A stretch of DNA of 64,000 nucleotides from Halothermothrix sp. (GTDB taxonomy: Bacteria > Bacillota > Halanaerobiia > DY22613), in contig JAENYK010000001.1 in the NCBI GenBank assembly GCA_016841825.1, positions 1 through 64,000 of the forward strand. Reading direction: 5' to 3'. How positions within the stretch are numbered: position 1 is the stretch's first letter; every line of letters starts with the position of its first letter. This document shows, in pieces, positions 3,850-17,446 of this stretch. Under the pieces are notes generated by a model. The model made no database searches and was not told the origin of the DNA. It saw only the letters and a program-made list of their open reading frames with translations. The translations under genes were made by a program, and so were the position numbers.

Positions 3850-4104
3850 ATGATAGAAGCATATTTTAAAAGGAGAGAAAAATCAAATGATAGAGAAACC
3901 ATATTTGAAAGGAAGATATTAGCAAGGAGAATTATCGAGTTTAAAGATAAACATAATCTTTACTATCAGGAGCTAGGTGAAGCTATTGGCGTGGATAAAA
4001 GCTATCTTAATCGTGTTGTTAAGATGGTTTCCTACATGTCTGTGCAAGTATTGATTCGATTGGCAAAACATATGGAGATCATACTATTTGTCCAAATTGA
4101 TTAG
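3850..4104 (+). CDS. Small XRE-type helix-turn-helix protein
   Basis: An 84-residue frame from ATG 3850; an alternative ATG at 3808 would add a hydrophobic 14-residue start that seems unlikely. The core ARRIIEFKDKHNLYYQELGEAIGVDKSYLNRVVK is a lambda-repressor-like HTH, the second helix plus recognition helix being YQELGEAIGVDKSYLNRVV. It would bind DNA in the cytoplasm; target unknown. There is no convincing ribosome-binding site before either ATG. The best one (AAAGGAGA at about 3868) precedes ATG 3886 in another frame that soon stops, so the 5' end may be frameshifted. It sits alone between decayed mobile DNA and a convergent signalling cassette and may itself be a remnant. Confidence 0.5.
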   Translation: MIEAYFKRREKSNDRETIFERKILARRIIEFKDKHNLYYQELGEAIGVDKSYLNRVVKMVSYMSVQVLIRLAKHMEIILFVQID

Positions 4105-4351
4105 GGGCTATATAGCAACCAATATATTAGCCAAAAAGAAAATAGAAAATATTATAGCAAAACATAAAGTTTTATGAAAAACACTATATAATCCGACAAA
4201 AAGTATTAAAAGATTACAACTAAAAATAATTAGTAAAGCTAAAAGAGATACCTATTTTTTGCAGAAATAATAAACTTAATAGCTCAAAACCATACCTATC
4301 TGTTTTTTTAACATTGTGACCTACCAGTCATTTTCGATAATAATACTTTCT
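4105..4351. other. Intergenic, no gene seen
   Basis: AT-rich, with stop codons in all frames. It lies between the HTH gene and the shared terminator at 4352-4399. Nothing recognisable was found. Confidence 0.5.
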
Positions 4352-4399
4352 AAAAAGAAGCATAATTCCTACACAATGTTCAGAATTATGCTTCTTTTT
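4352..4399. terminator. Strong bidirectional terminator
   Basis: A perfect 17-bp stem: AAAAAGAAGCATAATTC (4352-4368) pairs with GAATTATGCTTCTTTTT (4383-4399) around a 14-nt loop. The A-run on one side and U-run on the other let it work in both directions. It closes the TPR-peptide transcript (minus) and possibly the HTH gene (plus). Confidence 0.85.
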
Positions 4400-4486
4400 A
4401 TTAGCGATTAAGTTTTTCAGTGGCCTCTAGCAAAGGAGTCTTTTTTTCCTTTATAATCTATTCCAATTATCTTAAATCTATTCTGA

Positions 4487-4639
4487 TTATCCATCAGTAT
4501 CAGGGTCAGGCCACGGTCCACAAGTTAATACGATACCTCCTTTGTCTGTTACAGGTTCAATATACGAATCAGCTAAAATAGAGATATTAGTAAGAATCAG
4601 AGATAATACTAATCCAAAAATAACTAACCACTTTCTCAT
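4487..4639 (-). CDS. Small secreted peptide, Phr-like pheromone precursor candidate
   Basis: A 50-residue gene starting at ATG 4639, 23 nt after the stop of the TPR gene, with a GAGGGGGG ribosome-binding site about 7-14 nt upstream. The protein has a classical export signal: basic MRKW, a hydrophobic stretch (LVIFGLVLSLILTNISIL) and a possible cleavage after ILA. A short polar tail follows, ending CGPWPDPDTDG. A signal peptide plus short tail directly behind a Rap-like TPR gene is the arrangement of Rap/Phr and other RRNPPA signalling pairs, where the exported precursor is trimmed and the peptide re-enters to bind the TPR protein. The function is inferred from size, signal and context only; the tail matches no pheromone I know. 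A terminator lies downstream at 4352-4399. Confidence 0.6.
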   Translation of the reverse strand: MRKWLVIFGLVLSLILTNISILADSYIEPVTDKGGIVLTCGPWPDPDTDG

Positions 4640-4662
4640 AACAATTCCCCCCTCACTTTAGT

Positions 4663-5631
4663 TTATTCAAAAAATGGAGTGCCTTTTAATTTATTTTTTA
4701 GACCCTCACTCATTGCACTCAAACAATCAATTTTATATTCACTAATTACCTCATTAATTTTTATCAATGTATCAAATGAATTTGAATAAGCTTCGGCATC
4801 TCTAAAAAATTCAAAAGCTAAATATAAAGTATCTAATGCCCGGAAATACTGTTCCTCACGTAGTTCATATAAAGCTTTTGTGTACATAGATTTTGCCATT
4901 TCAAATTTATTTCCATTTTTGTTACTAATGACTTCGGCTTTTTCTAAATAATCAATTGCATCTACAGACAACTCTTCTTTATCGAAGTTAAGATATAAGG
5001 CAGCTAAATTATTATAGATTTTTGGTAAATCAGCTTCTTGGCAATAATCCAAAGCACGCTTTTGCATTCCAATAGCTTTGTCGTATTCTCCAATAAATGA
5101 AAAATATGTACTATAGTTATTAAAATATCGTTGTCTCTTTTTATCATCTATATTATCAAAGTTATCACGAATAAGCTTAAGATATTTTTTAGCTTCTTGT
5201 AAAGCACTATCATCTTTTTTAATGGTCGTTATTAACAAATTAACCCAAGCAATATTATTATAAGCTTCAATTAACAACAAAATCTCATCGGTTTCATTCA
5301 ATAAATCTTTGAAAATTATTAAAGCTTTTTTAAATTCACCCAAATAACCTAAAGCAACTCCCTTATATTTTTTTAGTCTAAATGCGTTTTCTCCAGTATT
5401 ATATTTTAATGCATCATCTATACTATCCAATAAAGCACCAAATTGATTAAAATTGACTAATCCTTTACACTTCAAAAAAGTTGAATTAGCTAACATTTCT
5501 TTATCATTAGCGGAAGCTTCTATTGCTACACCAATCTTCAACATAAAACCTAACAAATCCTTCTTCTCCAACATAATTTTTGCTTCTTCGTAATATTTTG
5601 CTGGAGATAGCACCAACCCAGATTCTACCAT
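4663..5631 (-). CDS. TPR-repeat protein, Rap-like peptide-responsive regulator candidate
   Basis: A 322-residue, almost all-helical soluble protein built of tetratricopeptide-like repeats. Recognisable units include AFRLKKYKGVALGYLGEFKKA (about 82-102), a LLIEAYNNIAWVNLLI helix pair, KRQRYFNNYSTYFSFIGEYDKAIGMQKRAL (about 165-195) and KIYNNLAALYLN. No HTH is seen at the N-terminus, so it resembles Rap-type phosphatases or anti-activators more than PlcR- or Rgg-type DNA binders. The start is ATG 5631 with a GGGGGAAAG sequence just upstream and a near-consensus promoter at 5705-5733. The secreted-peptide gene follows after 23 nt in the same transcript. Likely role: a cytoplasmic sensor whose partner binding is relieved by the re-imported peptide. 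The partner is unknown, and assignment beyond TPR is inference. Confidence 0.72.
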   Translation of the reverse strand: MVESGLVLSPAKYYEEAKIMLEKKDLLGFMLKIGVAIEASANDKEMLANSTFLKCKGLVNFNQFGALLDSIDDALKYNTGENAFRLKKYKGVALGYLGEFKKALIIFKDLLNETDEILLLIEAYNNIAWVNLLITTIKKDDSALQEAKKYLKLIRDNFDNIDDKKRQRYFNNYSTYFSFIGEYDKAIGMQKRALDYCQEADLPKIYNNLAALYLNFDKEELSVDAIDYLEKAEVISNKNGNKFEMAKSMYTKALYELREEQYFRALDTLYLAFEFFRDAEAYSNSFDTLIKINEVISEYKIDCLSAMSEGLKNKLKGTPFFE

Positions 5632-5704
5632 TTTCTTTCCCCCTAACTTTTATATGTAATTTCTTATCCTAAAAACTTTAACACAAACCTCACTTTCCAT
5701 AATA

Positions 5705-5733
5705 ATTATATCATCCATGGTAAAATTATTCAA
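5705..5733 (-). promoter_or_regulatory. Sigma-A promoter of the TPR-peptide operon
   Basis: On the minus strand, TTGAAT (5728-5733), a 17-nt spacer and a perfect TATAAT (5705-5710). The expected transcript start is about 65 nt before the TPR start codon. Confidence 0.75.
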
Positions 5734-6265: not shown

Positions 6266-7000
6266 TTACCTATTTATCTCACCCCGCAAAATCCTATTAA
6301 CCCTTATAATCGTCTCATTTACCAATGGAGTTTCCATCATCGTGAAATGATCCCCCGGCGTGTTCAACAGATAGACCTGACCTAATGTTAACGGACTCCA
6401 GAGCTCTTTTGTGATCCTACGGTCAGGATTATCATCTGCTTTCACGAGATAAATATCTGATTTGATGAAGTTAGCTGGTTGATATTTGCTCATAATCTGC
6501 AAGATATTCTCTTCCACCCGTTTCTGCCTGATAGCTACCTGGTCAGTTAAATTCTCCGATATATCCTCTGTCTGGGCTGCACTCTCCTGTTCAGCCTGTG
6601 TACTACTAAAGAGATTACTAATTGATCTGAGAACAGTAGCCAAATTCTTCTTCTGCCTATTGACCCTAAAGACTGCAGAATCTAAAAGAATAAATTTTTT
6701 CACTGGAATATTGTCTGCTTCTAACTGACGTACCATCTCATATGTTAGCAGACTTCCCGCGCAGAAAGCCAATAGAGTATATGGGCCGTCGGGTTGGACT
6801 TTGCGTATCTCCTGAATATATTCTGCTACCATCTGAATCACTGACTCAGGAAGTTTAGCATCATGCATCATTCCCTTTGCCTGAATACCGTAGATATTAT
6901 ACTCTTCACCCAGGTTATCTGCAAAATCTTTATACCAATGAATGGCTCCACCCAGTGGATGGATACAGAAGATATTTCGATCTGTTGTACCAGCCTTCAA
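6266..7000 (-). other. NRPS2 thioesterase domain with Cys nucleophile position
   Basis: Approximate bounds. This alpha/beta-hydrolase type I TE starts near VPLKAGTTDRNIFCIHPLGG. The nucleophile elbow, usually GxSxG, reads AFCAGS (Cys3829, fused numbering). The catalytic His is in GDHFTMM (His3967). The Asp was not assigned with confidence. It releases or cyclises the finished peptide. Confidence 0.85.
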
Positions 7001-10000
7001 TGGAACGACACATTCCAGACCTTGTAGAACTATCTCTCTTCCCATACTCTCCGCAAAACTACGAATAGTAGGATTCAAGAAGAGCATTCCAATGGAATAA
7101 TTGGTTGTAAACTCCTGATTGATCAGCTTCAAAGTACTAATCAATTTCAACGAATGACCTCCCAGATCAAAGAAGTTATCAGTCACACTGATACTATCTA
7201 TTCCCAATACCTGTCTCCAGATCTGAACTAATCTTTCTTCAACCTCGGTAGCGGGGGCAACATATTCCCGTCCTGTGTTAATCGAACCTTCCGGTTGTGG
7301 TAACCTTTTTCGATCTATCTTACCATTAGTATTCAATGGCATCTTCTCTAATTGCACAAAGTAAGAGGGGATCATATAGTCAGGCATATTTTTGGCCAAA
7401 TATTCCCGTAATCCAGCTACACCCAATTCCCGATCAGCGACATAATATGCGCAGAGATACTTACTGCCAGGACTGTCTTCAATGTCTACGACCACAGCCT
7501 CTTTGACTTCTCCATGATTTGACAGTTGATTTTCTATCTCACCTGGTTCAATTCTGAAACCTCTAATCTTAACCTGATGATCAATTCTACCCAGGAACTC
7601 AATATTGCCATCTGCTAACCATCTCACCAGATCACCTGATCGATACATCCGATTTCTTTCTTCCAACGGATTGACCACAAATTTCTCAGCAGTCAGTTCA
7701 GGACGATTTAAATAACCCCGGGCCAGTCCATCTCCCGCAATACACAACTCACCAGCCACTCCTATAGGCTGAAGTCGATTAAATTTATCAAAGATATATA
7801 CCCGTGTATTGGAGACAGGTTTACCTATGGGGATGGTCTCGGCGAACTCCCGTTGTATCTCATAATAAGTTGTAAAAGTTGTACTCTCGGTTGGCCCATA
7901 ACCATTGATCACCCGGAGATCCTTGCATCTACTTCTCAGCAGATTGATATGTTTAGGCGACAATGCATCTCCACCAACAAATAAGGTCTCCAAGTCTGTA
8001 AAGGTATCCGGATTCTCTTCCAACATCTGATTAAAGAAAGGGGCTGTCATCCAGATTTTGGTTATCCGATTCTCTTTTAAAGTCTTCTCCAATTCCACAG
8101 CCGAGAGTAGAATCTCTTTATCTACCAGATAAAGGGCTGCTCCATTTAAGAGTGAACCCCAGATCTCAAAAGTTGAAGCGTCAAAGGCCAGTGAACCTGT
8201 CTGCAATATTCGATCAGTCTCTGAAATGATCAACATATTAGAACCAGAAATCAATCGATTGACATTAAGATGTTTGATCATTACACCCTTGGGAGTTCCA
8301 GTGGAACCTGAAGTGTACATAATATAGATTAGATCTTCAGGCGAATTGACATTTTCCAGATCACTCTGGTCAGACTGATAATTTTCTTCTGCTTCCAGGT
8401 AAATAAATTCATCAGTAGTAAATTGATCACCTAACCCTTTACGGGTGAGCAATAATCTCGTTCCAGAATCCCTCAGCATAAACTGAACCCTATCTTCAGG
8501 ATAATCGGGGTTAATCGGCAGATATGCACCACCAGCTTTGATAATCGCCAAAACACCTGTTAGCATCTCTATTGAATGTTCGATCATAATCCCAACTGGT
8601 TCATCTGGTTTAACTCCTTTTACACGTAATGTTCTCGCCAGTCGATTAGCCTTTTGATTCAACTCCAGATAGGTAAATTTTTGCTGATTATAAACGACAG
8701 CAATATTGTCTGGAGTACGCCTAACCTGTTCTTCGAATATCTGCTGAATACTCTTCTCCTGTGGGTAGGAACAGGTTGTAGCATTAAATTCCCGCATAAT
8801 CTGTTCTCTTTCACTGGCAGAGATCATCTCAATCCTGGATAGTTTCATTTGATAATTATCGACAACTTCTTGTAAGATATTTAGATAATGACCCGCCATC
8901 CTCTCTATCGTCTCTGGTTTAAATAATTGGGTACTGTATTCAAAGGCCAACAAAATTCGATTATCTGTGTCAGATTGAATAACCTCTAAAGCATTTAATG
9001 TTAGATCAAATTTGGCAGTTCGATTTGCAAATTTAACCTGTTTTAGATTCAATTCATGCACAGAACTATCATCAATTTCTCTACTCTGTAAAGTAAAGAC
9101 AATATCAAAGAGAGGATTGCGCGCTGGATTACGTTCAAGATCAAGTTTTTCGACCAATGTTTCAAACTGATAATCCTGATGCTCAAAAGCCTGAAGCGCA
9201 TTTTCTTTAACCTCCTGAATGAATTCCTGATAGGTTTTAGCTCCGATTGGAAAGTTCCGCATAGCCAGAGTATTGACAAACATACCGATGATATTCACCA
9301 GGTCAGCATGGGATCTTCCGGCAATTGGTGAGCCGATAATGATATCTTCCTGACCTGAATATCTGGCAAGAAGAATGTTCAGTCCCGACAGAAGAATCAT
9401 ATACAGAGTAACCCCTTGCTCTCTAGCCAATAGATAGATCTTTTTCACAATTCGGGAGTCAATCTCTACACCCCAACGATCTCCAGAAAAGTTCCTTACT
9501 CCAGGGCATGGAAAATCTGTGGGTAGATTGAGCACCGGAATCTCATCCGCAAAAATCCTTAGCCAGAACTCCTCCAGTTGCTTATGTCTCCCTGACGCAA
9601 AGAGTTGATTTTGCCAGAATGCAAAATCTTTATACTGTAAATGAAGGGTTGGCAGTTGTTGACCTCGATAAAGGGCTAACAATTCTCTGGTTAAGATTTC
9701 CATAGAAATACCATCAGAAATAATATGATGCATATCAAAAATTAAAATATTTCCTGTACCCTGTTTCAGAACTCCTACCCTAAACAATGGGGCTCTGGAT
9801 AGATCAAACGGTTTAATAAACTCCTGAATAAGTTGTTCCAGTTCTCCTATCTCTAACTCGCCTGTTTCCAATCCCCTGACCTGTTTTTCAGGTGACAGCT
9901 CTCTGGACTGCAGCTCGCGTCTAAACTCTTCGGCGAAAAGAATCGTCAATTTGAATTGCACATTTTGATGAATTATCTGCACTGGTTCATTATTTTCAAA

Positions 10001-13000
10001 ATGAAAGGATGTTCTCAAAGATTCATGACGCTCAATTAATTCTTTAAAAGCTTTCTCCAGCTTAAATAGATCCAGATTACCCTCTACTCTCAAAACCTGG
10101 GGAATATTATATGCCGTCCTGATCTCTTCTAATTGATTAAGTACAAAAAGACGTTTCTGAGCAGAAGATAGAGCATAAACCTGTTTATTACTGCTATCTC
10201 CTGTCACTAAACAAGGTTTGATCTCAAAGAAAGAGCCATCCTGCCGGGAGGCTTTAATATATCCTGCCAACTCCCGGATAGTCGGTTTATAAAACACTTC
10301 CCTTAACGGTAAGTTCACTTTCAGATGTTTATAGACCTGGGCTATCATATATGTAGCCTTTAATGAATGACCTCCAAGTTCAAAAAAGTTATCCAGAACT
10401 CCGATCTGCTCTCTACCAAGATTTGCTTTCCAGATCTCCAATAATTTCTCTTCAATCTCATCCTCCGGAGGAAGATATTCCTTCTCTCCCAATACACTCT
10501 CTTCGGGCTCAACTAAACCCCGACGGTCTATCTTACCATTGGCTGTTAATGGCATCTCCTCAATGAAAACGAATCGGGAAGGAACCATATACTCAGGCAG
10601 AACATTCTTCAGATATTGACGCAATTCACCAACTTCCTCTTCCCCTGTACTCACCAGATAGGCCAGCAAATACTTATCGCCCGATTCATCCACAGCATCA
10701 ATAACCACACTCTGAGATATTTGAGGATGTTCCAACAGAAGTGCTTCAATCTCACCTGTCTCAATTCTATAACCCCGAATTTTGACCTGATGATCAATCC
10801 GTCCAATAAACTGCAGATCATTAGTGGTCGTCCGTCTGACCAGATCTCCGGTTCGATACATCTTACTCCCCGGAACAAAAGGATCGGGGATGAAACGGTC
10901 TGCCGTTAACTCAGGCTGTCGATAATAGCCTCTGGCCAGTCCATCGCCTGTAATATATAACTCACCTATCACCTTCCGGGGTACCAGATGCAGACCACTG
11001 TCCAGGACATAGGTTCCGGTATTGGCAATCGGTTCTCCGATGGTTACTTCTTCTGCTGTCGTCAACTCTTTAATCGTTGACCAGACTGTAGTCTCCGTTG
11101 GCCCATACATATTATAGATCCTGGCAGAAGTCACTCTACGCAGTTCCTTAAGCAGATCTTCCGGGAAGGGTTCTCCCCCAATTAAAATCACCTGCAGATC
11201 ACTTAAACCACTATCCTTTCCGGAACTGAGTAATAACTTCATTCTGGAAGGGGTCATCTGTACTAACTGAATACTATGCTTTAATAAAGCATTATTTAAC
11301 TGTTCAGGATCAAGCTGTTCCTCCGGAGTAGCCAGAACTACCCATAAACCCCGGGATAAGGTCAGGAGAGTCTCCAGGACAAATATATCGAAGGAAAAAC
11401 TGGTTACAGAGAAAAATCTTTTTCCGGCAGTAAAGTCTATCCGTTCCGTTACCCCTATTATCAGATTATGTACTGCCCGATGTCCGATCATTACCCCTTT
11501 GGGCTTACCTGTTGAGCCAGAAGTATAGATTACATAGGCCAGGTCATCACTCTGATTAATTCTCTCCGGATTGTCCGAATCTTCCCGATAAATTTCCCCA
11601 TCAGCAAAATCAATCACCTGACCGGTAAACTCCAACCCTTTTAGTGATTGACTATTTGTCACCAGAATGGAAGCCTCACTATCTGTCAACATATATTTGA
11701 TACGTTCTAACGGATATTCAAAATCCAGTGGTAGATACGCACCTCCAGCCTTCAAAACTCCCAATTGACCTACTATCAACTCAGGGGAACGTTCAGTCCA
11801 GAGACCAACTATGGTATCTCTACCGACTCCTCTTCCCCTCAGATAATGGGCCAGTCGGTTTGCCCTGGCGTTCAATTGAGTATAAGTCAGACTCTCTTCT
11901 GCAAAAGTCAGAGCAGTACTGTCCGGAGTTCGCTGCACCTGTTCTTCAAATAATTGCTGAACAGATTTGTGTTGTGGATACTCCCTCTCAGTGGCATTTA
12001 AACCAGAGATTAACTCCTCCTTCTCCAATTCAGTCAAGATCTCCAGATCTGCAAGCTTACTCTCTGGTCTCTCTATTATCTGTTCTATCAGAACCAATAA
12101 GTGATTGACAAACCCTGTCATGGTCTCTTTCGTAAACAGGTCTGTACTATATTCCAGAACACAATTTATCCCCCGGAAGGTTTCGATGGCATTTAACGTC
12201 AGGTCAAATTTGGATACTTTATTCTCAAAGGGATATGGTTTAATTGGAGAATCACCCATCTCCTCCTGTAAATTACCATGATCCTGTAAGATGAACATCA
12301 CATCAAACAGGGGATTCCTGCTCAGATCCCGTTGTAGATTCAACTGATCGACCAAGGTCTCGAATTGATAGTCCTGATTATCGTATGCCGTTAAAGCCAT
12401 CTCCTTAACTTCACTCAGAAATTGTTCAAAACTCTTCCCGGATGTGGGATAATTTCTCATGGCCAAGGTGTTAACAAACAGGCCAATAATATTTTGCAGG
12501 TCTGCATGGGATCTACCGGCTATCGGGGAGCCGATAACAATATCTTCCTGACCAGTGTATTTGAATAACAACACATTATATAGGGCTAGTAATAACATAT
12601 ACATCGTTACATCCTGTTTTTGAGCCAATTTATTCAACCTGGCAGTCAGTTCCCGATCAATATTGAATTCTATTCCCTCACCCCGATAACTGAGCATTGT
12701 GGGTCGTGAAAAATCTGTCGGTAGATTGAGAACAGGTACCTCTCCACTGAAGACTTCCAACCAGACCTGTTCCTGTTGATGAAATTCAGGAGATTCTAAG
12801 AGTTGATTCTGCCAGGCTGCAAAGTCTTTATACTGTATTCTCAATGAAGGTAATTCCCTATCACCATATAAATTCATAAATTCGCTAATTAATATCCTTT
12901 TGGATGCCCCGTCAGAGATAATGTGATGCATATCATACATCAGCAGATACCTCTCCGATGCCAATTTGACCAGACTGGCCCTGAACAGTGGTGCTCTGCT

Positions 13001-16000
13001 TAAGTCAAAAGGTCTGATAAACTCACTGACCTGTTGTTTAATTATCTCCTCGTCGGTTCCATCTAAAATGTCAATCTCAGCATAATCCATTGAGAATTCC
13101 AGACTATCTTCAATCTTCTGCACTGGCTGACCGTTTATGAAATCAAAAGAGGTTCTCAGAGAATCGTGTCTCTGGATTAGTGTTTTGAAAGCTTGCTCAA
13201 CCCGCTTCCAGTCTATCTCCTCTTCAATGATCAGCACTCCCGGCATGTTATAACCGGTATTATTCTCTGAGATCTGATCGAGAATCAAAAGTCGTTTTTG
13301 TGCAGAGGAGACCGGATAGTATTCTTGAGCTTCTACCAGTGGAATATCAACATACTCCCCAAAAGAGCCATCCTGCCGGGAGGCTTTAATATATCCTGCC
13401 AACTCCCGGATAGTCGGTTTATAAAACACTTCCCTTAACGGTAAGTTCACTTTCAGATGTTTATAGACCTGGGCTATCATATATGTAGCCTTTAATGAAT
13501 GACCTCCAAGTTCAAAAAAGTTATCCAGAACTCCGATCTGCTCTCTACCAAGATTTGCTTTCCAGATCTCCAATAATTTCTCTTCAATCTCATCCTCCGG
13601 AGGAAGATATTCCTTCTCTCCCAATACACTCTCTTCGGGCTCAACTAAACCCCGACGGTCTATCTTACCATTGGCTGTTAATGGCATCTCCTCAATGAAA
13701 ACGAATCGGGAAGGAACCATATACTCAGGCAGAACATTCTTCAGATATTGACGCAATTCACCAACTTCCTCTTCCCCTGTACTCACCAGATAGGCCAGCA
13801 AATACTTATCGCCCGATTCATCCACAGCATCAATAACCACACTCTGAGATATTTGAGGATGTTCCAACAGAAGTGCTTCAATCTCACCTGTCTCAATTCT
13901 ATAACCCCGAATTTTGACCTGATGATCAATCCGTCCAATAAACTGCAGATCATTAGTGGTCGTCCGTCTGACCAGATCTCCGGTTCGATACATCTTACTC
14001 CCCGGAACAAAAGGATCGGGGATGAAACGGTCTGCCGTTAACTCAGGCTGTCGATAATAGCCTCTGGCCAGTCCATCGCCTGTAATATATAACTCACCTA
14101 TCACCTTCCGGGGTACCAGATGCAGACCACTGTCCAGGACATAGGTTCCGGTATTGGCAATCGGTTCTCCGATGGTTACTTCTTCTGCTGTCGTCAACTC
14201 TTTAATCGTTGACCAGACTGTAGTCTCCGTTGGCCCATACATATTATAGATCCTGGCAGAAGTCACTCTACGCAGTTCCTTAAGCAGATCTTCCGGGAAG
14301 GGTTCTCCCCCAATTAAAATCACCTGCAGATCACTTAAACCACTATCCTTTCCGGAACTGAGTAATAACTTCATTCTGGAAGGGGTCATCTGTACTAACT
14401 GAATACTATGCTTTAATAAAGCATTATTTAACTGTTCAGGATCAAGCTGTTCCTCCGGAGTAGCCAGAACTACCCATAAACCCCGGGATAAGGTCAGGAG
14501 AGTCTCCAGGACAAATATATCGAAGGAAAAACTGGTTACAGAGAAAAATCTTTTTCCGGCAGTAAAGTCTATCCGTTCCGTTACCCCTATTATCAGATTA
14601 TGTACTGCCCGATGTCCGATCATTACCCCTTTGGGCTTACCTGTTGAGCCAGAAGTATAGATTACATAGGCCAGGTCATCACTCTGATTAATTCTCTCCG
14701 GATTGTCCGAATCTTCCCGATAAATTTCCCCATCAGCAAAATCAATCACCTGACCGGTAAACTCCAACCCTTTTAGTGATTGACTATTTGTCACCAGAAT
14801 GGAAGCCTCACTATCTGTCAACATATATTTGATACGTTCTAACGGATATTCAAAATCCAGTGGTAGATACGCACCTCCAGCCTTCAAAACTCCCAATTGA
14901 CCTACTATCAACTCAGGGGAACGTTCAGTCCAGAGACCAACTATGGTATCTCTACCGACTCCTCTTCCCCTCAGATAATGGGCCAGTCGGTTTGCCCTGG
15001 CGTTCAATTGAGTATAAGTCAGACTCTCTTCTGCAAAAGTCAGAGCAGTACTGTCCGGAGTTCGCTGCACCTGTTCTTCAAATAATTGCTGAACAGATTT
15101 GTGTTGTGGATACTCCCTCTCAGTGGCATTTAAACCAGAGATTAACTCCTCCTTCTCCAATTCAGTCAAGATCTCCAGATCTGCAAGCTTACTCTCTGGT
15201 CTCTCTATTATCTGTTCTATCAGAACCAATAAGTGATTGACAAACCCTGTCATGGTCTCTTTCGTAAACAGGTCTGTACTATATTCCAGAACACAATTTA
15301 TCCCCCGGAAGGTTTCGATGGCATTTAACGTCAGGTCAAATTTGGATACTTTATTCTCAAAGGGATATGGTTTAATTGGAGAATCACCCATCTCCTCCTG
15401 TAAATTACCATGATCCTGTAAGATGAACATCACATCAAACAGGGGATTCCTGCTCAGATCCCGTTGTAGATTCAACTGATCGACCAAGGTCTCGAATTGA
15501 TAGTCCTGATTATCGTATGCCGTTAAAGCCATCTCCTTAACTTCACTCAGAAATTGTTCAAAACTCTTCCCGGATGTGGGATAATTTCTCATGGCCAAGG
15601 TGTTAACAAACAGGCCAATAATATTTTGCAGGTCTGCATGGGATCTACCGGCTATCGGGGAGCCGATAACAATATCTTCCTGACCAGTGTATTTGAATAA
15701 CAACACATTATATAGGGCTAGTAATAACATATACATCGTTACATCCTGTTTTTGAGCCAATTTATTCAACCTGGCAGTCAGTTCCCGATCAATATTGAAT
15801 TCTATTCCCTCACCCCGATAACTGAGCATTGTGGGTCGTGAAAAATCTGTCGGTAGATTGAGAACAGGTACCTCTCCACTGAAGACTTCCAACCAGACCT
15901 GTTCCTGTTGATGAAATTCAGGAGATTCTAAGAGTTGATTCTGCCAGGCTGCAAAGTCTTTATACTGTATTCTCAATGAAGGTAATTCCCTATCACCATA

Positions 16001-17446
16001 TAAATTCATAAATTCGCTAATTAATATCCTTTTGGATGCCCCGTCAGAGATAATGTGATGCATATCATACATCAGCAGATACCTCTCCGATGCCAATTTG
16101 ACCAGACTGGCCCTGAACAGTGGTGCTCTGCTTAAGTCAAAAGGTCTGATAAACTCACTGACCTGTTGTTTAATTATCTCCTCGTCTGTCAGGACAGGAT
16201 TATTAATCTCATGGTAAACCAGAGAGAATTCCAAATCTGAAACAATCTTCTGTACCGGTTCACCATCGATAAATTCAAAAGAGGTTCTCAGGGAATCGTG
16301 TCTCTGGATTAGTGTTTTAAAAACTTGCTCAATCCGCTTCCAATCTATCTCCTCTTCAATGATCAGCACTCCTGGCATGTTATAACCGGGATTATTATTT
16401 GAGATCTGATCGAGAATCAAAAGTCGTTTTTGAGCAGAGGAGACCGGATAGTATTCTTGAGCTTCTACTATCGAGATAGCTGAATAGATACTCCTCTCAG
16501 CATTTTGTAAATATGTTCCTAACTCTTTGATTGTTGGCGTCTTAAAGATCTCTTTAAGGGGAATATCAATCTCCAAATCTCTGAGTATCTTAAATCTCAG
16601 CTGTGTCGCTTCTAATGAATGCCCTCCAATGGCAAAAAAGTTATCATTAATCCCAATCTTCTCTCGCCCAAGAATCTCTTCCCAGATATTGACCAAATGT
16701 TCTTCAATCTGATTGGTTGGTGGGACAAACTGCACTTCCAGATTCATCTCCGCGGCCAGTTGAATTAAAGCTTTGCGATCGGTTTTTTTATTTGGAGTGA
16801 GTGGTAATCTATCCAAAATTATAAAATGAACTGGAATCATATAATCAGGTAACTTACCTGCCAGATATTCCCGTAATTCTGCAATTGTCAGATCTTTTTC
16901 TAAGACGACAAAAGCACAAAGTTGCTTCTCCTCCAATGTATCTTCTTTCGCAATTACTACTGCGTCCCGAACTCCTGAGTTAGTCGCAAGCGTACCCTCA
17001 ATCTCGCCTAACTCCACCCGATAACCCCGAATTTTGATCTGAAAATCTTTTCTCCCCAGATATTCAACCTCCCCACCATCCAGACGACCCAGATCTCCGG
17101 TTCGATAGAGTTTGCCCAGTTCTGGATGTTGGAGAAATACCTCTTTAGTTTTCTCAGGATCTCTCCAATACCCCAGAGCAACATGATTACTGGCGATTAC
17201 TAGCTCACCTACCTCCAATGGTAGAGCTTCTTCTCCATACTCATTGATAATCAAAATCTCTGTGTCATCAACAATTTTTCCCAAAGTTACTTTGGTAAAT
17301 GGGGTATCTGTGCTGATAAACTGGGCAGAGTTAAAGGAAGATTCGGATTGGCCATACAGATTAACCAAAATAGTTTTGGTATGAGCAAATTTCTCTTTAA
17401 AACTTAAAACATCGTTAGCCAGTACACTCTCCCCCCCCCAAAACAA
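6266..17446 (-). CDS. Nonribosomal peptide synthetase NRPS2, main part (end of A10, T10, modules 11-13, thioesterase)
   Basis: The terminal synthetase of the assembly line. As an open frame it starts at a TTG inside an adenylation domain. The true protein almost certainly begins at 18248 and is broken only by an extra G in a G9 tract (17431-17439); read through, it is about 3,993 aa. Domain order in that fused numbering: A10 (about 1-500), T10 (phosphopantetheine Ser544), C11-A11-T11 (Ser1584), C12-A12-T12 (Ser2628), C13-A13-T13 (Ser3699) and TE (about 3740-3993). All C domains keep HHIISDG. Pockets read as Gly, Gly and Val for modules 11, 12 and 13. Modules 11 and 12 look identical over about 940 residues. 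The TE has Cys3829 in AFCAGS where Ser is usual, and His3967 in GDHFT. There are no epimerisation domains. It acts in the cytoplasm as a holo-enzyme and needs a phosphopantetheinyl transferase not found here. Confidence 0.9.
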   Translation of the reverse strand: MFWGGESVLANDVLSFKEKFAHTKTILVNLYGQSESSFNSAQFISTDTPFTKVTLGKIVDDTEILIINEYGEEALPLEVGELVIASNHVALGYWRDPEKTKEVFLQHPELGKLYRTGDLGRLDGGEVEYLGRKDFQIKIRGYRVELGEIEGTLATNSGVRDAVVIAKEDTLEEKQLCAFVVLEKDLTIAELREYLAGKLPDYMIPVHFIILDRLPLTPNKKTDRKALIQLAAEMNLEVQFVPPTNQIEEHLVNIWEEILGREKIGINDNFFAIGGHSLEATQLRFKILRDLEIDIPLKEIFKTPTIKELGTYLQNAERSIYSAISIVEAQEYYPVSSAQKRLLILDQISNNNPGYNMPGVLIIEEEIDWKRIEQVFKTLIQRHDSLRTSFEFIDGEPVQKIVSDLEFSLVYHEINNPVLTDEEIIKQQVSEFIRPFDLSRAPLFRASLVKLASERYLLMYDMHHIISDGASKRILISEFMNLYGDRELPSLRIQYKDFAAWQNQLLESPEFHQQEQVWLEVFSGEVPVLNLPTDFSRPTMLSYRGEGIEFNIDRELTARLNKLAQKQDVTMYMLLLALYNVLLFKYTGQEDIVIGSPIAGRSHADLQNIIGLFVNTLAMRNYPTSGKSFEQFLSEVKEMALTAYDNQDYQFETLVDQLNLQRDLSRNPLFDVMFILQDHGNLQEEMGDSPIKPYPFENKVSKFDLTLNAIETFRGINCVLEYSTDLFTKETMTGFVNHLLVLIEQIIERPESKLADLEILTELEKEELISGLNATEREYPQHKSVQQLFEEQVQRTPDSTALTFAEESLTYTQLNARANRLAHYLRGRGVGRDTIVGLWTERSPELIVGQLGVLKAGGAYLPLDFEYPLERIKYMLTDSEASILVTNSQSLKGLEFTGQVIDFADGEIYREDSDNPERINQSDDLAYVIYTSGSTGKPKGVMIGHRAVHNLIIGVTERIDFTAGKRFFSVTSFSFDIFVLETLLTLSRGLWVVLATPEEQLDPEQLNNALLKHSIQLVQMTPSRMKLLLSSGKDSGLSDLQVILIGGEPFPEDLLKELRRVTSARIYNMYGPTETTVWSTIKELTTAEEVTIGEPIANTGTYVLDSGLHLVPRKVIGELYITGDGLARGYYRQPELTADRFIPDPFVPGSKMYRTGDLVRRTTTNDLQFIGRIDHQVKIRGYRIETGEIEALLLEHPQISQSVVIDAVDESGDKYLLAYLVSTGEEEVGELRQYLKNVLPEYMVPSRFVFIEEMPLTANGKIDRRGLVEPEESVLGEKEYLPPEDEIEEKLLEIWKANLGREQIGVLDNFFELGGHSLKATYMIAQVYKHLKVNLPLREVFYKPTIRELAGYIKASRQDGSFGEYVDIPLVEAQEYYPVSSAQKRLLILDQISENNTGYNMPGVLIIEEEIDWKRVEQAFKTLIQRHDSLRTSFDFINGQPVQKIEDSLEFSMDYAEIDILDGTDEEIIKQQVSEFIRPFDLSRAPLFRASLVKLASERYLLMYDMHHIISDGASKRILISEFMNLYGDRELPSLRIQYKDFAAWQNQLLESPEFHQQEQVWLEVFSGEVPVLNLPTDFSRPTMLSYRGEGIEFNIDRELTARLNKLAQKQDVTMYMLLLALYNVLLFKYTGQEDIVIGSPIAGRSHADLQNIIGLFVNTLAMRNYPTSGKSFEQFLSEVKEMALTAYDNQDYQFETLVDQLNLQRDLSRNPLFDVMFILQDHGNLQEEMGDSPIKPYPFENKVSKFDLTLNAIETFRGINCVLEYSTDLFTKETMTGFVNHLLVLIEQIIERPESKLADLEILTELEKEELISGLNATEREYPQHKSVQQLFEEQVQRTPDSTALTFAEESLTYTQLNARANRLAHYLRGRGVGRDTIVGLWTERSPELIVGQLGVLKAGGAYLPLDFEYPLERIKYMLTDSEASILVTNSQSLKGLEFTGQVIDFADGEIYREDSDNPERINQSDDLAYVIYTSGSTGKPKGVMIGHRAVHNLIIGVTERIDFTAGKRFFSVTSFSFDIFVLETLLTLSRGLWVVLATPEEQLDPEQLNNALLKHSIQLVQMTPSRMKLLLSSGKDSGLSDLQVILIGGEPFPEDLLKELRRVTSARIYNMYGPTETTVWSTIKELTTAEEVTIGEPIANTGTYVLDSGLHLVPRKVIGELYITGDGLARGYYRQPELTADRFIPDPFVPGSKMYRTGDLVRRTTTNDLQFIGRIDHQVKIRGYRIETGEIEALLLEHPQISQSVVIDAVDESGDKYLLAYLVSTGEEEVGELRQYLKNVLPEYMVPSRFVFIEEMPLTANGKIDRRGLVEPEESVLGEKEYLPPEDEIEEKLLEIWKANLGREQIGVLDNFFELGGHSLKATYMIAQVYKHLKVNLPLREVFYKPTIRELAGYIKASRQDGSFFEIKPCLVTGDSSNKQVYALSSAQKRLFVLNQLEEIRTAYNIPQVLRVEGNLDLFKLEKAFKELIERHESLRTSFHFENNEPVQIIHQNVQFKLTILFAEEFRRELQSRELSPEKQVRGLETGELEIGELEQLIQEFIKPFDLSRAPLFRVGVLKQGTGNILIFDMHHIISDGISMEILTRELLALYRGQQLPTLHLQYKDFAFWQNQLFASGRHKQLEEFWLRIFADEIPVLNLPTDFPCPGVRNFSGDRWGVEIDSRIVKKIYLLAREQGVTLYMILLSGLNILLARYSGQEDIIIGSPIAGRSHADLVNIIGMFVNTLAMRNFPIGAKTYQEFIQEVKENALQAFEHQDYQFETLVEKLDLERNPARNPLFDIVFTLQSREIDDSSVHELNLKQVKFANRTAKFDLTLNALEVIQSDTDNRILLAFEYSTQLFKPETIERMAGHYLNILQEVVDNYQMKLSRIEMISASEREQIMREFNATTCSYPQEKSIQQIFEEQVRRTPDNIAVVYNQQKFTYLELNQKANRLARTLRVKGVKPDEPVGIMIEHSIEMLTGVLAIIKAGGAYLPINPDYPEDRVQFMLRDSGTRLLLTRKGLGDQFTTDEFIYLEAEENYQSDQSDLENVNSPEDLIYIMYTSGSTGTPKGVMIKHLNVNRLISGSNMLIISETDRILQTGSLAFDASTFEIWGSLLNGAALYLVDKEILLSAVELEKTLKENRITKIWMTAPFFNQMLEENPDTFTDLETLFVGGDALSPKHINLLRSRCKDLRVINGYGPTESTTFTTYYEIQREFAETIPIGKPVSNTRVYIFDKFNRLQPIGVAGELCIAGDGLARGYLNRPELTAEKFVVNPLEERNRMYRSGDLVRWLADGNIEFLGRIDHQVKIRGFRIEPGEIENQLSNHGEVKEAVVVDIEDSPGSKYLCAYYVADRELGVAGLREYLAKNMPDYMIPSYFVQLEKMPLNTNGKIDRKRLPQPEGSINTGREYVAPATEVEERLVQIWRQVLGIDSISVTDNFFDLGGHSLKLISTLKLINQEFTTNYSIGMLFLNPTIRSFAESMGREIVLQGLECVVPLKAGTTDRNIFCIHPLGGAIHWYKDFADNLGEEYNIYGIQAKGMMHDAKLPESVIQMVAEYIQEIRKVQPDGPYTLLAFCAGSLLTYEMVRQLEADNIPVKKFILLDSAVFRVNRQKKNLATVLRSISNLFSSTQAEQESAAQTEDISENLTDQVAIRQKRVEENILQIMSKYQPANFIKSDIYLVKADDNPDRRITKELWSPLTLGQVYLLNTPGDHFTMMETPLVNETIIRVNRILRGEINR
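7050..10195 (-). other. NRPS module 13 (C-A-T), predicted Val
   Basis: Approximate bounds. C: HHIISDGIS. A: pocket D-A-F-W-F-G-G-T-F-K from FDASTFE, KIWMTAP, LFVGGD, INGYG and STTF, one step from the Val code DAFWIGGTFK. T: DLGGHSLK (Ser3699). It is the last extension module before the TE. Confidence 0.75.
10215..13340 (-). other. NRPS module 12 (C-A-T), predicted Gly, duplicate of module 11
   Basis: Approximate bounds. Pocket D-I-L-Q-L-G-M-V-W-K from FDIFVLE, LVQMTPS, ILIGGE, YNMYG and TTVW; Gly codes are DILQLGxxWK. T: ELGGHSLK (Ser2628). Everything from 10230 to 13054 looks the same as in module 11; only the first part of C differs. Confidence 0.8.
10230..13054 (-). repeat. Long tandem duplication, copy in module 12 (2,825 bp)
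   Basis: By eye this is base-for-base the same as 13362-16186, with a constant offset of 3,132 bp. The first mismatches are at 10229/13361 and 13055/16187. It covers most of C, all of A and all of T. Confidence 0.9.
13345..16470 (-). other. NRPS module 11 (C-A-T), predicted Gly
   Basis: Approximate bounds. Same pocket D-I-L-Q-L-G-M-V-W-K (Gly). C: HHIISDGAS. T: Ser1584. It lies exactly 3,132 bp (1,044 codons) from module 12. Confidence 0.8.
13362..16186 (-). repeat. Long tandem duplication, copy in module 11 (2,825 bp)
   Basis: Partner of 10230-13054. The flanking first third of the C domain is only similar (many substitutions), which marks the edges of homogenisation. Confidence 0.9.

Follow-up and report, generated by a model that had tools for sequence, protein, structure and literature searches.

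The cassette and its transcription signals

The window, the whole stretch of 64,000 nucleotides analysed here, belongs to the genome of a Halothermothrix species (G000; 5.08 Mb in 43 contigs) and carries a compact cassette on its reverse strand. The first gene (positions 4663–5631) encodes a TPR protein of 322 residues, for which Pfam returned only weak TPR matches and no HTH. Beginning 23 nt past its stop codon, a small ORF (4487–4639, reverse strand) preceded by the ribosome-binding site GAGGGGGG (4647–4654, reverse strand) encodes 50 residues, comprising the signal sequence MRKWLVIFGLVLSLILTNISILA and the tail DSYIEPVTDKGGIVLTCGPWPDPDTDG. Its C-terminus, CGPWPDPDTDG, is the predicted signal region (4490–4522, reverse strand) and includes the P-x-x-x-P core of the family, for which a shuffle test of the tails is given below. 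A Rap-sized TPR protein without HTH, followed by an unannotated small gene with an export signal, had been described in an earlier sequence-only reading of the window; both genes are present as claimed, and the export signal is of the Sec type.

Upstream of the TPR gene lies a sigma-A type promoter with an extended −10 (5705–5733, reverse strand), in which TTGAAT and TATAAT are separated by 17 nt and the −10 is preceded by TGA. The form TTGAAT-17-TGATATAAT is common to the cassettes, and the same promoter type is found upstream of most paralogs. Promoter-like matches are frequent in this AT-rich region of the window (29 found versus 15.9 expected). Across 17 upstream regions the promoter scores summed to 200, compared with a mean of 164 and a maximum of 170 after shuffling; in most of these regions 17 nt separate a TTG-type −35 from a TATAAT-like −10 extended by TG. 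The near-consensus promoter of the earlier reading is present, and its strong terminator corresponds to a terminator-like hairpin (4351–4400, reverse strand; 19 pairs, −26 kcal/mol, z = −7.4), which probably serves both strands. A strict terminator scan found none at the window cassette because the long A/U-rich stem escaped the scan. Further downstream, what remains of a convergent two-domain XRE-HTH regulator, truncated at its 3' end (3892–4092, forward strand), shows 69% identity to the N-terminal 69 residues of the intact copy at locus L071.

Predicted fold of the TPR protein

Structure prediction had been proposed as a check in the sequence-only reading, and an AlphaFold2 model computed from a 20-row alignment gave a TPR superhelix with a pLDDT of 92, in which 15 helices form seven TPR pairs and a long C-terminal helix. 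Among realigned Foldseek matches, NprR (5dbk) was the best from the RRNPPA receptors, with Z 24.3 and rmsd 4.0 over 288 residues, and Rap structures were also among the best with Z of about 22. However, LGN, TSK, and APPBP2 scored level with them, so the modelled fold is compatible with RRNPPA receptors but does not discriminate. No signal sequence was seen in the translation, which together with the predicted superhelix is what a cytosolic receptor of the RRNPPA type would have. In the paralog alignment, Asn126, Asn172, and Asn208 each reach 90% conservation or more, and in the register assigned in this analysis all three occupy the TPR helix-A position. An Asn at this position anchors the peptide backbone in RRNPPA receptors (PMC6458997, PMC3601992), although TPRs in general often have it, and visual inspection also finds it in the sibling TPR proteins that lack peptides.

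Sequence comparison yielded nothing more specific. NCBIfam and PHROGs returned generic TPR or unnamed matches only, a search of the model against a viral fold library gave generic TPR/Sel1 matches only, and sequence profiles hit generic TPR proteins. Neither a DNA-binding nor an effector domain was visible in the Pfam results or the model. Even with Rap the similarity in sequence is that of generic TPRs, and the architectures differ as well. Rap consists of a three-helix bundle and a TPR domain, with nine TPR-like folds in all, whereas the window model has seven pairs and one helix. It aligns to Rap only from about residue 42 onward, leaving the first 40 or so residues of Rap, which form much of its partner-binding bundle, without a counterpart. 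Most of the N-terminal three-helix bundle therefore appears to be absent, and the name Rap in its strict sense is not borne out. NprR differs in the same way, having both an HTH and a three-helix bundle, while the window receptor has no HTH and lacks most of the bundle.

A lineage-specific family of putative receptors and predicted secreted tails

The host belongs to the class Halanaerobiia: a sucrose-phosphate synthase encoded in G039, another genome of the class, matches PDB 2r60, a Halothermothrix orenii structure, with full identity across 496 residues. One other genome, G001 (3.56 Mb in one contig), sister to that of the window, is available from its family. Searching with the TPR protein recovered about 20 close paralogs in G000, most of them 30–48% identical, and at least four in G001. 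With a wide profile the protein family was found in two of 59 genomes of the class, both from the family of the window genome, and a single-sequence search agreed on those two. Across the phylum, a profile search gave only two weak matches outside the family, both in longer TPR ORFs (one row of that profile contained a single inserted residue, with no material effect). Named relatives were not found in the scanned genome contigs. Viral contigs, plasmids, and phages likewise contained no relative, so nothing points to a phage or a mobile element as the source of the cassette. Counting divergent members recovered by the wider profile as well as truncated receptors, there are about 18 cassettes in G000 and seven in G001.

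The small gene is a recurrent companion of the receptor. An ORF with a signal sequence, in the same position and layout as in the window, follows within about 75 nt in 18 of 22 TPR paralogs versus one of 126 control ORFs (Fisher p = 2e-18). The signal sequence was called by one fixed home-made rule rather than by SignalP, and the controls, all of at least 200 aa, were drawn from the fetched cassette neighbourhoods and the window only. The sole positive control, at L070, is itself a divergent member of the TPR family, with GPNWPPDDG as the tail of its small ORF. The pairing expected by the sequence-only reading is thus kept across two genera. These downstream ORFs encode 37–68 residues, in which a positively charged start is followed by a hydrophobic stretch and an A-x-A-like site, and their N-termini are conserved while the tails vary apart from the core. 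The four TPR genes without a propeptide form a tandem row directly behind a complete cassette (L063:6718-10561; G000:C14:242762-246533). They constitute one clade (support 100/99) with a shorter C-terminus and, judged from their sequences, resemble the orphan ('eavesdropper') receptors described in PMC9765709. In the tree, the 20 main peptide-paired and tandem receptors of both genomes group at 96/90 support.

A wider set of TPR proteins of about 320 aa without propeptides (L149–L165) also occurs in both genomes and includes one-to-one pairs between the genera (L153/L163, L154/L165, and L152/L164). Possibly these siblings have no signalling role, or they receive peptides that are produced elsewhere. 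Several copies of the cassette are decayed or incomplete, with receptors truncated or interrupted by an in-frame stop (L068, L069, L071, and L073) or lying at a contig end (L021), and most still have an intact signal-sequence ORF downstream.

The tails are short, acidic, and proline-rich, with K, R, and H together below 3%. P-x-x-x-P, a motif spotted by eye before its test, is present in 18 of 25 tails; when these tails were shuffled 2000 times, it appeared in 8.0 of them on average and never in more than 15. The position of the core varies, being C-terminal in the window (GPWPDPDTDG) and directly behind the cleavage site in other cassettes (ADPHGEPDTG, AYPDPEPGTT, ANPYVAPDPN, ADPNGHPGTQ, and AIPWPTPVGD). 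Some precursors contain it repeatedly. The L068 precursor has the core twice (APHPEPGNYSA and VPYPEPGNDSA), that of L157 (G000:C5:3675 region) has GPIQ[KR]PV twice, as GPIQKPV and GPIQRPV, and that of L166 (G001:C1:3012393 region) has many GPIEQPM-like units. The receptors of the latter two loci, one from each genus and both with secreted repeat precursors, are paired at 100/100 in the tree. At L075:6373-6699, one receptor is followed by two different propeptides, with tails TPSPDPAD and DGPSPAPSEGW. The propeptide of L059 (G000:C10:225506 region) ends in VVIFG at a TAG; the frame runs on as PGLDED, resembling the L066 tail NWPGFSED, as would result if a stop had replaced a Trp codon.

Probable peptide signalling and alternative readings

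A single promoter, an HTH-less TPR receptor, a propeptide with a Sec signal directly downstream, a terminator, about 18 cassettes, and diversified tails can be read from the sequence. With both the small ORF and its export signal conserved across two genera, an RRNPPA-like architecture is strongly supported at the level of sequence, as the earlier reading had proposed. We consider with good confidence that the cassette would be a cis-encoded intracellular peptide-signalling system working like Rap/Phr. Sec would very probably export the small protein, and cleavage would yield a short acidic peptide, rich in proline and bearing the P-x-x-x-P core. Its return to the cytoplasm through an oligopeptide permease is likely; oligopeptide-binding proteins (SBP_bac_5) number 11 in G000 and nine in G001, none of them tied to the cassette system. 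Once inside, the peptide is very likely to bind its cognate TPR protein in the concave groove, and binding would then rather probably alter how that protein engages a partner. Action through a partner is proposed because the receptor has no output domain of its own. Spo0A is present in both genomes.

RRNPPA signalling is described in the cited literature as a Gram-positive system. Halanaerobiales, however, have LPS outer membranes (PMC5007114), and Omp85 is encoded in both genomes. Owing to this outer membrane, the peptide must either cross it as a cell–cell signal or act as a periplasmic self-sensing timer. Through the cassette, a bacterium with two membranes can probably detect peptides that it secretes itself. 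A lineage-specific set of matched receptors and peptides in an outer-membrane Firmicute makes it testable whether such a signal passes between cells or provides timing within the cell. Moreover, about 25 natural receptor–peptide pairs on a common scaffold offer a means to follow how specificity diversifies, and a bare TPR receptor without an output domain makes the mode of action itself accessible to experiment.

Like Rap/Phr of Bacillus, the system combines an HTH-less TPR receptor with a downstream Sec-exported propeptide, many paralogs per genome, and some receptors without a peptide of their own. The peptides differ, as an Arg is highly conserved in Phr (PMC3601992) whereas the cassette peptides are acidic and proline-rich with almost no basic residues. 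The claim of novelty made by the sequence-only reading holds only in part. An HTH-less RRNPPA candidate, subfamily 17 of Anoxybacter fermentans, has been predicted (Bernard et al. 2023, PMC10075063; Moi et al. 2025, PMC12700828), and for this reason the cassette family is not called wholly new. Subfamily 17 also pairs an HTH-less receptor with a propeptide in a Halanaerobiales host, and going by its published description it is probably the same family; G001 is plausibly Anoxybacter fermentans. For subfamily 17, no description was found in the main text of these papers of a second genus with about 18 cassettes, of the P-x-x-x-P code, of precursors with repeats, or of the tandem orphan receptors.

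Other functions of the small proteins have to be weighed against signalling. They could be microproteins that stay uncleaved in the membrane and bind the TPR protein or anchor it, with a tail that is no pheromone; the short hydrophobic N-termini, the conserved spacing, and the close co-transcription suggested by the gene order would suit this. However, in most precursors the variable tail is immediately preceded by an A-x-A-like site, the core shifts between a post-cleavage and a C-terminal position, and some precursors contain at least two copies. Because of the site, the mobile core, and the repeats, a peptide precursor suits better than an anchor, and the membrane role appears improbable. 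Secreted antimicrobial or toxin peptides, with the TPR proteins as regulators or immunity factors, would likewise be exported, multi-copy, and fast-evolving. Yet the tails are not only short and proline-rich but also acidic and nearly free of K, R, and H, and neighbour clustering revealed no dedicated exporter, peptidase, or immunity gene recurring beside the cassettes. Moreover, the tandem orphan receptors fit eavesdropping. A toxin function is accordingly regarded as very improbable.

For the preferred Rap/Phr-like reading, the leading candidate partner is a separately encoded XRE-HTH regulator, which would make the system a split RRNPPA, a specific form of the main explanation that we hold tentatively, at less than even chances. 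By analogy, Rap-pLS20 is a direct precedent for a TPR protein acting on a separate HTH repressor: it binds Rco and releases it on Phr peptide binding (PMC7430634). A two-domain XRE regulator of 170–176 aa is convergent with five cassettes (L021, L058, L063, L071, and L074), and related regulators are found close to L076 and to the TPR gene of L169. Proximity within 1 kb is more frequent than random placement would give in both genomes (binomial p 3e-5 and 4e-6), an enrichment that is partly circular because the HTH genes used to build the search profile were themselves neighbours of cassettes. Segmental duplication could also account for the proximity, most cassettes have no XRE neighbour, and the copy in the window is truncated. 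Furthermore, Rap-pLS20/Rco belongs to a conjugative plasmid, whereas the link here is one of gene proximity. The wider picture of a large split RRNPPA-type network in a diderm Firmicute, with up to 18 sensors devoid of HTH and Rap effector bundle, joins this to an own P-x-x-x-P peptide for each sensor, separate XRE regulators, and peptides crossing or sampling the outer membrane, and as a joint claim it is doubtful. Control of the adjacent giant NRPS cluster, suggested in the sequence-only reading, is unlikely for its part. The NRPS genes do border the cassette as stated, ending about 0.6 kb upstream on the same strand, and the L060 cassette is likewise near an NRPS. However, adenylation-domain motifs occur in only two of 20 cassette neighbourhoods and are absent from the other 18, and the cassette, which lacks a DNA-binding domain, comes with a promoter and a terminator of its own. 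As a rule for the cassettes at large, control of an NRPS was therefore rejected. In the window itself, an ORF of 3726 aa with NRPS adenylation-domain motifs (6266–17446) and an ORF of 10231 aa taken for an NRPS by size alone (18487–49182) are both encoded on the reverse strand, the same as the cassette.
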